Positions 9,253 through 33,981 of a stretch of 33,981 nucleotides of DNA are shown piece by piece; the stretch's first letter is position 1; each line of letters begins with the position of its first letter. Under the pieces are notes generated by a model, which saw only the letters and a list, made by a program, of their open reading frames with translations, made no database searches and was not told where the DNA came from. A program made the position numbers and the translations under genes. This DNA is from a virus: positions 1 through 33,981 of IMG/VR virus record IMGVR_UViG_3300044941_000187; one strand, given 5' to 3'.

Positions 9253-9266
9253 GCTCAGACAAAACA

Positions 9267-9338
9267 CAGAGAGTGGAGCAGTGGCAGCTCGGCGGTCTCA
9301 TGATCCGCAGGTCGCAGGTTCGAATCCTGCCTCTCTGT
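9267..9338 (+). tRNA. tRNA-Met (CAT anticodon)
   Basis: Full cloverleaf: acceptor CAGAGAG/CTCTCTG (7 bp), D arm GAGC-AGTGGCA-GCTC, anticodon stem GCGGT/TCCGC with loop CTCATGA (T33, anticodon CAT, purine 37) and one T-T mismatch at the closing pair, variable AGGTC, T arm GCAGG-TTCGAAT-CCTGC. Discriminator T at 9338; CCA is not encoded. It lies on the coding strand within the tail operon and would be cut from the structural mRNA or a local transcript. CAT could also be an Ile tRNA after lysidine modification; the T arm fits elongator Met best. Confidence 0.88.
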
Positions 9339-9369
9339 TTTTGGCCCGATAATCAAAGGACAAATCAAT

Positions 9370-20952: not shown

Positions 20953-21040
20953 GTTTTATCTCCTTGATGCGGGGCAATCCCGCGTAAATGCCGCCTTGTG
21001 ACGGCCAGCGCCCGCACGTCGCGGCGCTGGGGCATTAACC
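20953..21040 (-). repeat. Duplicated leader element, copy B
   Basis: Matches copy A: TTAATGCCCCAGCGCCG at the far end, a stem CAGCGC...GCGCTG, GGCATTTACGCGGG, hairpin GCGGG-ATTGC-CCCGC and AAGGAGAT before the 275-aa gene. Here no gene ends at the TAA, so a gene that once lay upstream may have been lost, or the element moved as a unit. Confidence 0.65.
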
Positions 21041-21165
21041 CGCCACGCCTGGCGGGCCACTCTGCACATCTCATCCCCCGCCATCGCCGTGCGGGCGGGG
21101 GAAAGATCACTGGGTAACATCCCGGCGAGGCCGGGATGTCGAATGCCCGTTTAGGGCATTTTCAC
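21041..21165 (-). other. Cluster of hairpins between leftward genes
   Basis: Four stems lie within 125 nt: CCCGCC-ACGCCT-GGCGGG, CCCCCGCC/GGCGGGGG, CATCCCGG-CGAGG-CCGGGATG and ATGCCC-GTTTA-GGGCAT, the last followed on the forward strand by TTTT. Together with copy B of the leader, the 213-nt gap holds no gene but much potential RNA structure. It may be a small RNA, a processed leader or an attenuator. Confidence 0.45.
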
Positions 21166-29172: not shown

Positions 29173-29247
29173 GAACGGGTAACTCAGTAGGTAGAGAGCG
29201 ACGGCTACACCGTTGCCAATGCGTGGGTTCAACTCCCACCCCGTTCA
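29173..29247 (+). tRNA. tRNA-Val-like gene (TAC), unusual anticodon loop
   Basis: Acceptor GAACGGG/CCCGTTC is perfect (7 bp), with D arm ACTC-AGTAGGTA-GAGA, anticodon stem CGACG/CGTTG, loop GCTACAC, variable CCAATGC, T arm GTGGG-TTCAACT-CCCAC and discriminator A. The anticodon reads TAC (Val), but position 33 is C rather than the near-universal T, and positions 32 and 38 could pair. It begins three bases after the tRNA-Leu-like gene and 26 nt before the sliding clamp gene. Confidence 0.65.
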
Positions 29248-29273
29248 TTCCCCTAACAAGGAGAGCAGAACTA

Positions 29274-30383
29274 ATGCAACTGACGATTGAGGCAAGCAAG
29301 CTTGCCAACACATTACAGAGGGTACAGGCGTGCGTTGCCAAACGCACTCCAATGGAGGTATATAAACGAGTCTTGTGCGAAGCTCAAGACAAACAACTCC
29401 ATATCACTGGCACAGACCTTGAATCATGGATTCGAGTTTCCGTTCCAGCAATCGTTGAGGAGTGCGGAAAAGCAATCCTGCCACCGAAAGAACTTAACTC
29501 AATCGCATTGCAGACTGATGGTGATTTGAATCTTTCTGTTACCAGTGGATCGACGGCTCTAGAGTTGCGGGGCGAAGGATCGCATTATCATTTTACACTG
29601 ATGAATCCTTCAGATTTTGCTCCCATTGAGGAACGGGAAGTCGACGAGTGGCTAAAGGTGACTGCTGGCGATTTGATTCGTGCATTGCGTTTAACGATTT
29701 TTTCAGTCAGTATTGAGGAAAGGAAATTTGCGATGCGTGGGCTCTTATTTGAAGCCATCAATCAGACATTGAGGGTTGTTACAACCGACTCAAAACGATT
29801 ATCAATGTTCGATTGCAACCTTCGACAGCCGCGAACAACCGACAAGGTTTTTAACGCCTTGGTTAGCAGTAACTCATGCAATCTGTTGTTGCAAAATCTC
29901 TTGCGAATTGAGCCCGAATCGATCCTTCAAATTGGCATAAATTATAATTCGATTTATTTCAAAACAGACGACTCGCTCCTCGTATCGCGACTCACTGAGG
30001 GGCGTTTTCCGCCCTATCGAGATGTGGTTCCAAAACTCGCCAATCTGAATCCTGTCAAACTCAATCGCAAGGCTTTCCTTGCCTCTCTTGAACGATTACG
30101 AATGATGTGGGACGACGAATGCCGGCGCATCAGCATGAATTTCAATGGAACGCAAATTAATATGCGAATTTTGCACACACGGCTTGGGGAGGGTCAAGTT
30201 ATTCACAAGTTGGAACACCCAGTCCCTTTGCCTGTTGTGATTCACTTTGATCCTGAATTTCTGCTGGAATTATTCCGTATCCAGGAATTTGGCGATAATG
30301 TGACGATGTTTTACAAAGATGCCAGCAGGTCTTCGTTGTTCGTTTCCGACCGCTATACCCACCTGATTGTACCCCTAACCTGA
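29274..30383 (+). CDS. dnaN: DNA polymerase III beta sliding clamp
   Basis: The 369-aa protein has the three-domain clamp pattern: MQLTIEASKLANTLQRVQACVAKRTPMEVYKRVLCEAQDKQLHITGTDLESWIRVSVPA (domain 1), FSVSIEERKFAMRGLLFEAINQTLRVVTTDSKRLSM (domain 2, typical ...GVLLE...L..VATDGHRLA), ending YTHLIVPLT (family ...YVVMPM). The clamp keeps the replicative polymerase on DNA. AAGGAGAGCAGAACTA lies before the ATG at 29274; a longer frame from 29223 crosses the tRNA and was rejected. No polymerase gene is seen, so it would serve the host polymerase. Confidence 0.88.
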   Translation: MQLTIEASKLANTLQRVQACVAKRTPMEVYKRVLCEAQDKQLHITGTDLESWIRVSVPAIVEECGKAILPPKELNSIALQTDGDLNLSVTSGSTALELRGEGSHYHFTLMNPSDFAPIEEREVDEWLKVTAGDLIRALRLTIFSVSIEERKFAMRGLLFEAINQTLRVVTTDSKRLSMFDCNLRQPRTTDKVFNALVSSNSCNLLLQNLLRIEPESILQIGINYNSIYFKTDDSLLVSRLTEGRFPPYRDVVPKLANLNPVKLNRKAFLASLERLRMMWDDECRRISMNFNGTQINMRILHTRLGEGQVIHKLEHPVPLPVVIHFDPEFLLELFRIQEFGDNVTMFYKDASRSSLFVSDRYTHLIVPLT

Positions 30384-30390
30384 GAGCCAC

Positions 30391-32631
30391 ATGCAAATAA
30401 CATCCCCCCAACTCGATCTCGCTCTCTCCCTGCTTCATGTGGGTATAGCCTGTATCCCGATTCGCACGGAAAAGGGACGGGAGAAAACTCCTGCCCTCAG
30501 CAAATGGAAGCAGTTCGAGCAACGGTTGCCCACCGAAGCTGAGTTACGACAGGCGTTCTCGGGTCGATCATTCGGCATTGCTGCGATCTGTGGTGCTGTG
30601 TCGATGGGGTTGGAGTGCCTCGACTTCGAGGTGGCTCACGAGTTTGGCATGTTTGCTGACGAGCTCGACCAACTCCAACCCGATTTGTTGCGACGGCTGG
30701 TGCAGGTCAAGACCCCTTCAGGGGGGTTCCACCTGTGGTATCGTTGCCCAGAAGAGTGTGGCCCCAGCACCCGATTGGCGATGCGAGATTCAACACCCGA
30801 AGAACTCGAAGCTAACCCCAAAGACAAAATCCAACTTCTCATTGAGACTCGGGGCGAGGGTGGATATGCCCTCCTTCCCGGAGGGGATCCGTTAGCACAC
30901 CAGACTGGCGAACCCTATGAGTACGTCTACGGGCACATCACCAAAGTCCCGGTTCTTTCTGCCGACGAGCGTCATTTGATGCTCGACCTTGCAAGGTCGT
31001 TCAACCGAGTGGCAAGACCCGCAAAAGGCTCAACGCCCATTCGACCCAAAGCAGCCCTCGGAACGATGTCAGCGATTGACGACTTTGACAATCGGGGGTC
31101 CTGGCAGGAAATCCTTGAACCGCACGGCTGGACTTTATCGTCCGGCGATTGGGAGTTTGGACGGCTCACTCGACCCGGAAAGGATCGGGGAGTTAGTGCC
31201 ACCGTTGGTTATTGTCGATCTTCTGCAGGGGATTCTCTCCTGCATGTGTTCACCACTGGCTCTTCCATGGAACCCGGAACCTATGGCAAGTTCCGGGCTC
31301 TTGGAATCCTCAACTACGCGGGTAATTTTTCGGAGACCGTGAAGGCCCTCGGGCAGCAAGGTTACGGCACACCGGTTACACCTCGAGCGCAAGGTTCGGT
31401 TGGGCAACAGGCCCAACTTCAAGCCACAACACAAGCCCAAAATAAAGAACAAAAGCCCGACGAGCCAACGAAACTGCCTTGGGAAATACCCCCACAAAAG
31501 GGGGAGCGACCCCGAAAAATCGTCAATGCGGTCGATCTGATGCGCAAAGAGTTTGTGCCAGTCCCCTACACGGTGGATGGCATTCTCTCGCAGGGATTGA
31601 ACTTGATCGGGGGCAAACCCAAAGCCGGTAAGTCTTGGTTTGCTTTGCAACTCGCGTGGGCGGTTGCAGGTGGCTACGAGATGAGTGGGCGAAAAGTCCG
31701 CAGCGGTTCGGTTCTCTACCTTGCGCTCGAGGATACCGAGCCCCGCCTCCAATCTCGAATGAAACTTCTCCGAACTGCGACGGGTTGGGACTTTCCCTGC
31801 AAACTCGACATTGCGACCGTCTGGCCCCGATGCGATGACTCGGGCCTGTATTATATTTGCGAGTGGCTCGAAGCAAGGAAGAACGATGCTGTTCTCGTCA
31901 TCGTGGACACCCTGCAAAAATTCCGTAAACCAATCAAGGGCCAAACCAACAACTATGCCGACGACTACGAGGCATTGGAAGGCCTTAAAGGTCTGTGTGA
32001 TCTCTACGGTGTGACCGCCCTCGTCATGCACCACACGAGAAAATTGAAAGCTGAGGACCCGTTCGAGGAGCTTTCCGGAACTCAGGGGCTTGCCGGAGCT
32101 GCCGACGGACTCGGGGTGCTGGACAGGGATCGCAGCAACGCAACTGGACGGCTGTACATCACCGGTCGGGATCAAGGCGATAGCACAACCCCGTTGATTT
32201 TTTCCGGTGACTCGGGCCTATGGACACTGGGTGAGACAACCGAAGGGATCGACACCGAGGGGAGAGCGGTTCAACCGGACAAGGGGCCCAACAAGGTTGA
32301 ACAGTGCATTATGTGGATGCGTGAATTCCTGCGTGAGTTCGCATACCCTTCAGCCGAGTTCAAAGCAGCAGCACAAGCGGCTGGCTTTGGTTGGGGCACC
32401 ATCAAAGAGGCCCAGTCAGCAACCGGAGAACAAGGCTCAAAAGAATTTAAGGCCCACAACTTTGGTTCGCGAGCTGAAAACGATTGGTGGATTGGCAAAT
32501 ACTACGCCCCCGGAACCCGTCCGCACAACTGGATTCGGCGACCCCCGTCAACGAGCAGCAACGCTACAGCGACAAGGGGGAATAGCGACGAACAGCAAAA
32601 GACAGATGACTGGGTTCCCGATGAAATGTGA
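30391..32631 (+). CDS. Primase-polymerase / RepA-like helicase fusion
   Basis: The 746-aa protein joins an N-terminal bifunctional primase/polymerase domain (LLHVGIACIPIRTEKGREKTPALSKWKQFEQRLPTEAEL..., FGIAAICGAVSMGLECLDFE, about 1-200) to a RecA-fold helicase. Walker A GGKPKAGKSWFALQLA lies near 408-423 and LVIVDTLQKFRKP (Walker B) near 500; HHTRK and GTQGLAGAADG follow, as in RepA/Gp4-type hexameric helicases. It would start and drive phage DNA replication. An iteron-like array follows directly, as expected for an origin next to its initiator. Confidence 0.88.
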   Translation: MQITSPQLDLALSLLHVGIACIPIRTEKGREKTPALSKWKQFEQRLPTEAELRQAFSGRSFGIAAICGAVSMGLECLDFEVAHEFGMFADELDQLQPDLLRRLVQVKTPSGGFHLWYRCPEECGPSTRLAMRDSTPEELEANPKDKIQLLIETRGEGGYALLPGGDPLAHQTGEPYEYVYGHITKVPVLSADERHLMLDLARSFNRVARPAKGSTPIRPKAALGTMSAIDDFDNRGSWQEILEPHGWTLSSGDWEFGRLTRPGKDRGVSATVGYCRSSAGDSLLHVFTTGSSMEPGTYGKFRALGILNYAGNFSETVKALGQQGYGTPVTPRAQGSVGQQAQLQATTQAQNKEQKPDEPTKLPWEIPPQKGERPRKIVNAVDLMRKEFVPVPYTVDGILSQGLNLIGGKPKAGKSWFALQLAWAVAGGYEMSGRKVRSGSVLYLALEDTEPRLQSRMKLLRTATGWDFPCKLDIATVWPRCDDSGLYYICEWLEARKNDAVLVIVDTLQKFRKPIKGQTNNYADDYEALEGLKGLCDLYGVTALVMHHTRKLKAEDPFEELSGTQGLAGAADGLGVLDRDRSNATGRLYITGRDQGDSTTPLIFSGDSGLWTLGETTEGIDTEGRAVQPDKGPNKVEQCIMWMREFLREFAYPSAEFKAAAQAAGFGWGTIKEAQSATGEQGSKEFKAHNFGSRAENDWWIGKYYAPGTRPHNWIRRPPSTSSNATATRGNSDEQQKTDDWVPDEM

Positions 32632-32632
32632 T

Positions 32633-32868
32633 TTTTCAAAACGACCATACCTGTCATACCAGTCAAGGGAAATTCGAGAAATATAAGGGTTTCATGACAG
32701 GTATGGTAAAAAATCCAGACCATACCTGTCATACCAGTCTAGCGGTTTTCAAAACGACCATACCTGTCATGACAGGTATGACAGGTATGGTAAAAAAATC
32801 CAGACCATACCAGTCATGAAACGCTTGTTTTTACGGGGTTTGGTTAGACTGGTATGACAGGTATGGTC
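32633..32868. repeat. Iteron-like repeat array, candidate replication origin
   Basis: A 22-bp unit (GACCATACCTGTCAT + ACCAGTC) occurs exactly at 32643-32664 and 32718-32739, and exactly inverted at 32847-32868. Partial copies lie at 32693-32706, 32756-32790 and 32803-32818, and 32759-32780 is a perfect 22-bp palindrome. Flanks (TTTCAAAACGACC, GGTATGGTAAAAAATCCAGA) repeat with a period of about 110 nt. The 263-nt gap has no credible gene; an open frame there only reflects the repeat. ATACCAGTCT also occurs in the 568-627 inverted repeat. Confidence 0.9.
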
Positions 32869-32894
32869 GTTTTCGAGGGGTGCGATTTGTGGGA

Positions 32895-33449
32895 ATGAGT
32901 GCAACCGAGGAAGAAATTGTGCGATGGGTGGAAACCGGTCGGGTGGAGTATGCTGCTGTCCGCGATCTCCTTTCGCTCTCAGCTCAATCGCGTTTGCAAT
33001 CCCTCGGGTTTGCTGGGCCTATTCCTGCTCTCCCAGTAACCTCTACTGAAGTCTCTAAGTTACTTAAAGCGCCGAAGCCTATCAAATTTGGAAAATGCCG
33101 ATCCGGATTTGGTGTCACTTTCGAGGCCCCCATCAAGTTGGTTTCCGAGGCCAACACTCACGACGGGCTCAAAGCCGAACTCCGTCGTAAAGCTTCCGTG
33201 AAACGAGCAATGCACCGAGTGCTCACGTTGATCCCTCGGGTTATTGCTCTCCCATGCACGGTAACGATGGTTCGCTTTGGGCCCAAGGAATTGGATAGCG
33301 ACAACCTCGACAACGCTTTCAAGGCAGTACGGGATATGATCGCCGAATGGGTAGGTGTTGACGATGCCGACAAGCGATACACGTGGCAGTTCCATCAAAA
33401 GCCAGGCAAGGCTTACAAGGTGCGGGTCACGATTTGGAGCGGTGCATGA
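32895..33449 (+). CDS. rusA: RusA-type Holliday junction resolvase
   Basis: The 184-aa protein carries LDSDNLDNAFKAVRDMIAEWVGVDDADKRYTWQFHQKPGKAYKVRVTI (around residues 130-180), the RusA motif in which Asp residues coordinate the metal (DxDNLxKxxxDxL...GVxxDD). RusA cuts four-way DNA junctions made during recombination and replication. The N-terminal 60 residues are a non-catalytic extension. GTG at 32889 and ATG at 32895 are possible starts after GAGGGG. It lies between the repeat array and the methylase. Confidence 0.8.
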   Translation: MSATEEEIVRWVETGRVEYAAVRDLLSLSAQSRLQSLGFAGPIPALPVTSTEVSKLLKAPKPIKFGKCRSGFGVTFEAPIKLVSEANTHDGLKAELRRKASVKRAMHRVLTLIPRVIALPCTVTMVRFGPKELDSDNLDNAFKAVRDMIAEWVGVDDADKRYTWQFHQKPGKAYKVRVTIWSGA

Positions 33450-33547: not shown

Positions 33548-33981
33548 ATGAGCAATAAGCCGTTGCAGTCGCCATTCCCTTACTTTGGCGGCAAGAGCCG
33601 TATCGCGAGCTTGGTTTGGGAGCGATTCGGCGACGTGCGGAACTATGTCGAGCCGTTTTTCGGCTCGGGGGCGGTATTGTTGGGCCGTCCCCACTGGCCA
33701 TTCCAAGACACGCGAATCGAAACGGTAAACGATCTGAATGGGATGGTCGCCAACTTCTGGCGAGCACTGAGCCGATCGCCTGACGAGGTGGCATACTACG
33801 CTGACTGGCCGGTCAATGAATGCGACTTGCACGCTCGACATCAATGGCTGATCACTGAGGGTCTGGGACATGTTGAGCGGCTAAAAACCGACCCGGATTA
33901 CTACGACCCGAAGATCGCCGGATGGTGGGTGTGGGGGATTTGCCAATGGATCGGCTCCGACTGGTGCAAAAAGGCTCATAA
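33548..33981 (+). CDS. DNA adenine methylase, N-terminal part (3' truncated by window end)
   Basis: The product starts MSNKPLQSPFPYFGGKSRIASLVWERFGDVRNYVEPFFGSGAVLLGRP, with FPYFGGK and VEPFFGSGAV forming the SAM-binding motif of D12-class N6-adenine methylases, and ends at ...WIGSDWCKKAH plus two bases. AGAGGA precedes the ATG. With the sequence at 2-304 it would form one gene in frame, but the middle part including DPPY (about 80-120 residues in relatives, as I recall) is missing at the join. Confidence 0.88.
   Translation, partial: MSNKPLQSPFPYFGGKSRIASLVWERFGDVRNYVEPFFGSGAVLLGRPHWPFQDTRIETVNDLNGMVANFWRALSRSPDEVAYYADWPVNECDLHARHQWLITEGLGHVERLKTDPDYYDPKIAGWWVWGICQWIGSDWCKKAH

Follow-up and report, generated by a model that had tools for sequence, protein, structure and literature searches.

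The window, that is the whole stretch of DNA analysed here, is an entire viral record of 33,981 bp. In the near-identical contig L007 its two ends are adjacent, separated by 282 bp which are absent from the window, and the genome is therefore circular or circularly permuted, with a size of about 34.26 kb. It encodes a large terminase and a Mu-type portal, the terminase genes lying about 3 kb beyond the repeat array described below on the circular map, and two small regulators of the XRE type. The main genes around the array are the following:

29250 to 30383, plus strand: phage sliding clamp, DnaN-like (PF00712/PF02767; phrog_947)
30391 to 32631, plus strand: primase-helicase of 746 amino acids and proposed initiator, with a PrimPol domain (Pfam PF09250, E 1.5e-12) and a RecA-like AAA_25 domain (PF13481, E 4.4e-24); DNA polymerase/primase in PHROGs
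32895 to 33449, plus strand: RusA-like Holliday junction resolvase, the next gene after the array (PHROGs phrog_34, E 2.6e-5)
33548 to 33981 and 1 to 304: D12 (Dam-like) methylase gene, split by the window ends

Also near the array are genes for a Rad52/Erf-like annealing protein, a RecE/YqaJ-like nuclease and two sigma-like proteins. The phage carries two tRNA genes, tRNA-Met(CAT) at 9266-9339 and tRNA-Val(TAC) at 29173-29247, the latter just ahead of the sliding-clamp gene. A match to the Type-P5 twister ribozyme at 20990-21066 on the minus strand is barely above the Rfam threshold (40.0 versus 37.6 bits).

The gap behind the helicase gene is occupied by a repeat array, delimited on the 5' side by the helicase stop codon at 32631, with the first unit at 32647, and on the 3' side ending before the RusA-like gene. 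The initial annotation had reported three exact 22-bp copies, one of them inverted, and a perfect 22-bp palindrome, and all of these were located, between 32643 and 32868. The core repeat is the 9-mer ATACCWGTC, shorter than the 22-bp copies (GACCATACCTGTCATACCAGTC). A window-wide count gave 11 exact array copies on both strands from 32647 to 32864 and a single extra copy outside the array at 585-593, whereas shuffles of the whole window averaged 0.17 copies and never exceeded 2. Units are frequently paired head to tail, ATACCTGTC followed by ATACCAGTC, and it is such pairs that make up the 22-bp copies. The array is composed as follows:

32638 to 32873, no strand assigned: whole array, the proposed replication origin, with inverted arms, a long-hairpin fold and a dyad kept in a diverged relative
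32643 to 32664, plus strand: 22-bp copy 1, units 32647-32655 and 32656-32664, head to tail
32696 to 32704, minus strand: inverted unit ATACCTGTC
32718 to 32739, plus strand: 22-bp copy 2, units 32722-32730 and 32731-32739
32759 to 32780, no strand assigned: perfect 22-bp palindrome CATACCTGTCATGACAGGTATG near the dyad centre, units 32760-32768 (plus) and 32771-32779 (minus)
32780 to 32788, minus strand: inverted unit, head to tail with the preceding unit (32771-32779)
32807 to 32815, plus strand: unit ATACCAGTC
32847 to 32868, minus strand: 22-bp copy 3, inverted, units 32847-32855 and 32856-32864

Units in the left half are mostly on the plus strand and those in the right half on the minus strand, forming a single dyad. 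The whole array is spanned by a large imperfect inverted repeat, with arms at 32638-32707 and 32804-32873 which are 81% complementary, and one strand folds as a single, very stable long hairpin (z -14.7). Since the fold drops from -125.5 to -88.9 once the letters outside the units are shuffled, the symmetry of the array exceeds that of the units alone. AT content is only moderate, at best 68% over 40 bp.

The palindrome at 568-627, an AT-rich sequence between the Dam-like and a sigma-like gene, had been linked to the array through a shared ATACCAGTC and a supposed common binding protein. The shared unit is present, as a lone and not significant match; the common binding protein is not supported, since the relative L010 keeps the arms of the corresponding palindrome with a different sequence and without the unit. 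To judge from this comparison the palindrome is a separate conserved structure.

In the relative L006, whose helicase is 87% identical, the array keeps its units, their order and nearly all of their spacing. Identity between the two arrays is 93/99 in unit columns and 110/150 in the other columns (p = 2e-5). The non-unit bases of L006 have changed in such a way that the large dyad survives: its array has a minimum free energy of -127.1 kcal/mol, against -104.9 +/- 7.1 when the same L006 substitutions were put at random non-unit positions, where 1 of 300 simulations was as good. Maintenance of the dyad could be explained by selection or by conversion between the arms. The left arm of the array is mixed in the near-identical contig L005, which could be a trace of conversion.

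A DNA similarity search with the window array against phage and plasmid records gave no useful match, and the exact repeat strings were not found in a literature search of open-access papers. A collection of 2.9 million viral contigs was scanned blindly, by motif alone, with three exact-pattern array scans (tandem plus inverted units) and one control, demanding units on both strands. The early matches were mostly collagen-like coding repeats (ATGACTGGT, encoding Met-Thr-Gly) and single inverted pairs, and were dropped by the two-strand rule. The control with the reversed motif gave 0 hits in the viral collection, the array was absent from 1192 bacterial genomes, and the tandem form was not found in E. 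coli genomes. The generalised core unit is ACCTGTCA, in both orientations. Steps of 9 bp are the commonest, with 36 of 71 short spacings, a preference partly built into the search patterns, which bias spacing. By our grouping, two-strand arrays of the core unit are present in 15 independent lineages: the window clade, the Squashvirus group, L033, L036, L186, L188, L190, L191/192, L205, L206, L207, L208, L209, L210 and L211. Twelve of the 15 have the array at, or within, the 3' end of a primase-helicase gene, for which the chance is near 1e-11 if a 750-bp target in about 10 kb is assumed. The helicases with a 3' array are of different types:

AAA_25 helicase: window, L036, Squashvirus, L209
D5-type helicase with PrimPol: L033, L206, L208, L211
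D5 helicase with an NrS-1-type domain: L192
DUF5906 helicase: L205
VapE helicase: L186, L207

In Squashvirus and L209 the array is located inside the helicase reading frame. In a thirteenth lineage, L190, it lies within a DUF1376 gene, and the arrays of L188 and L210 adjoin no recognised helicase, that of L188 being beside an S24 repressor gene. The ACCTGTCA units of L190 (3778-3819) are upstream of a DnaB/AAA_25-like helicase gene, an arrangement which recalls phage lambda, whose origin is located within gene O. Unlike the window, certain other carriers have a clear AT-rich core, among them L192 and L194. Carriers include complete tailed phages, phage contigs and plasmids, and come from several bacterial phyla; among the plasmids, pYe4449-2 has the array after a VapE gene and pMNOD05 after a DUF927 gene. 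The initial annotation had suggested that the element could be a phage-plasmid. This was not borne out, as neither an integrase nor ParA/ParB or any other partition or plasmid-maintenance protein was found among the scanned window proteins, which cover part of the open reading frames, and ordinary tailed phages carry ACCTGTCA-type arrays too.

In a sample chosen independently of the motif, the 3' ends of eight helicase genes were inspected, seven of them homologues of the window helicase and the eighth from Streptococcus phage Sfi21. When two-strand repeats are ranked within each locus, four of the eight 3' ends come into the top 5% (Roseobacter phage CRP-811, MT836902, S. suis SsuZKB4 and Sfi21), with units different from those of the window, for instance ACTACAAA or ATCGTCAC. 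In CRP-811 (L213:4557-4730) ten copies of ACTACAAA on both strands directly follow a RepA-type helicase gene, an origin-like arrangement with a different unit. Steps of 9 bp are visible in several of the arrays, and in Sfi21 the annotated origin sits exactly at this 3' position. Shambre1 and Eileen have no repeat array at the helicase 3' end. The arrays of other units behind these helicase genes indicate that the position is general and the unit variable, ACCTGTCA being one widely recurring unit.

The conservation of position, motif and symmetry in many elements, together with published origins in the same downstream position, gives good support to the earlier suggestion of a replication origin, and we consider with a probability of about 85% that the array is the replication origin of this phage. 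Cumulative GC skew rises from about 8 kb to the window end without closing and places no origin. The array is most likely bound by the adjacent PrimPol-AAA_25 helicase. The C-terminus of this protein has no Pfam match and no recognised DNA-binding domain, and the predicted structures of two helicase C-termini are of low confidence (pLDDT 42.6 and 36.7). In the model which we propose, the helicase or a partner would bind the oppositely oriented iterons (core ACCTGTCA, here ATACCWGTC) within the large inverted repeat directly 3' of the primase-helicase gene, probably as two rings, and the duplex would open inside the dyad. The helicases would then travel apart while the PrimPol domain lays the first primers, and the phage's own sliding clamp would assist.

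Other functions can be proposed for such an array. Its location between two co-directional genes and the very stable single-strand hairpin would suit a chiefly regulatory site, either a set of operators to which a repressor or activator of the phage would bind or, if helicase and rusA share one transcript, an RNA hairpin or attenuator separating the two; the XRE-type and sigma-like proteins of the phage and the S24 repressor gene next to the L188 array point in the same direction. Against this, arrays trail the primase-helicase irrespective of the next gene, even inside the helicase frame in Squashvirus and L209, the ACCTGTCA unit recurs with unrelated neighbours, a downstream terminator is absent and promoter matches are barely above the shuffle level, so that we regard a mainly regulatory role as quite improbable. 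Even smaller is the probability of a partition (centromere-like) or packaging site, for which direct and inverted repeats in an intergenic gap, as in parS/parC-type clusters, and the terminase genes about 3 kb further on the circular map could be cited; the lack of ParA/ParB among the scanned proteins speaks against it, as does the position shared by 12 of the 15 lineages, which is behind replication genes and not behind terminase or partition genes.

A different question is which element of the array would be recognised. In the Sulfolobus plasmid pRN1 a stem-loop downstream of the PrimPol-helicase gene is the origin and is required for replication (PMC4234260), and in the window too a large stem-loop could be recognised rather than the iterons, the repeats having arisen for the most part because the dyad is maintained or because the arms undergo gene conversion. 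The dyad does include the sequence outside the units and has been preserved in L006, and the mixed left arm of L005 could reflect conversion. But the same 8-mer is found in unrelated elements, in arrays of quite different lengths and with fold z values from -2.2 to -12.2, and this recurrence despite varied length and folding favours recognition of sequence and makes the stem-loop explanation unlikely. It overlaps with the origin reading, as the array would still be the origin and only the recognised element would differ.

The unusual point, as far as sequence comparison goes, is that one short iteron is common to unrelated initiator helicases. Their C-termini can be aligned within groups (the D5 types; two small VapE types; L182 and L200, and weakly L209), and no link was found between these groups. 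Nor was a second gene common to all array loci found as a candidate binder, VRR_NUC being present at five loci and HNH at four. The presence of a single unit behind AAA_25, D5, VapE and DUF927 helicases with dissimilar C-termini raises the question of its reader. Sharing across helicase families may be due to convergence on a favoured sequence, to exchange of origins or to a shared reader. That ACCTGTCA in 9-bp steps constitutes a common origin code for replicons with unrelated initiator helicases is a tentative idea, more doubtful than probable; if it were true, a widespread DNA-binding protein, host or accessory, or a shared domain not yet recognised could read the origin and hand over different helicases. 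For uncultured phages the data suggest a simple rule, namely that the origin may be sought directly 3' of the primase-helicase gene, as a two-sided array of short units which are often spaced by 9 bp.

In SaPI, PICI, SCCmec and pRN1 alike, the origin or putative origin directly follows the initiator gene (PMC7581432, PMC6092414, PMC4234260). The Rep helicases of SaPIs use their C-terminal domain to bind iterons which lie just after their own gene, and the D5-family Cch2 of SCCmec binds direct repeats immediately 3' of its gene, a putative origin (PMC7581432); the latter differs from the window in its unit, AAGTG, and in having three copies only. In PICIs an AT-rich region behind rep is flanked by two iteron sets, a feature described as unique to them (PMC6092414). 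The window shares with the rep-ori of SaPI and PICI the site directly behind the initiator helicase gene and the iterons in two opposed sets. The helicases of those elements are of the types D5 and DUF927 (PMC7581432, PMC6092414), which also occur among the ACCTGTCA carriers, and that of the window is a PrimPol-AAA_25 protein. As to the AT-rich region between the PICI iteron sets, the window array reaches at most 68% AT over 40 bp. Furthermore, PICIs are satellites without structural and large-terminase genes of their own, whereas the window, a tailed-phage genome, encodes both a terminase and a portal. Phage Sfi21 (AF115103, 34487-34784) has its annotated origin directly behind a D5-like primase gene and tandem and inverted short units around an AT-rich core; its unit is AGTTACTT-like, with a period of 8 bp and without ACCTGTCA. 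With pRN1 the window has in common a PrimPol-helicase gene followed by a large stem-loop, of roughly 100 bp in pRN1, but that plasmid has an SF3 helicase and no iterons whereas the window has a RecA-like AAA_25 helicase and iterons. The window array thus unites the iteron feature and the stem-loop feature.
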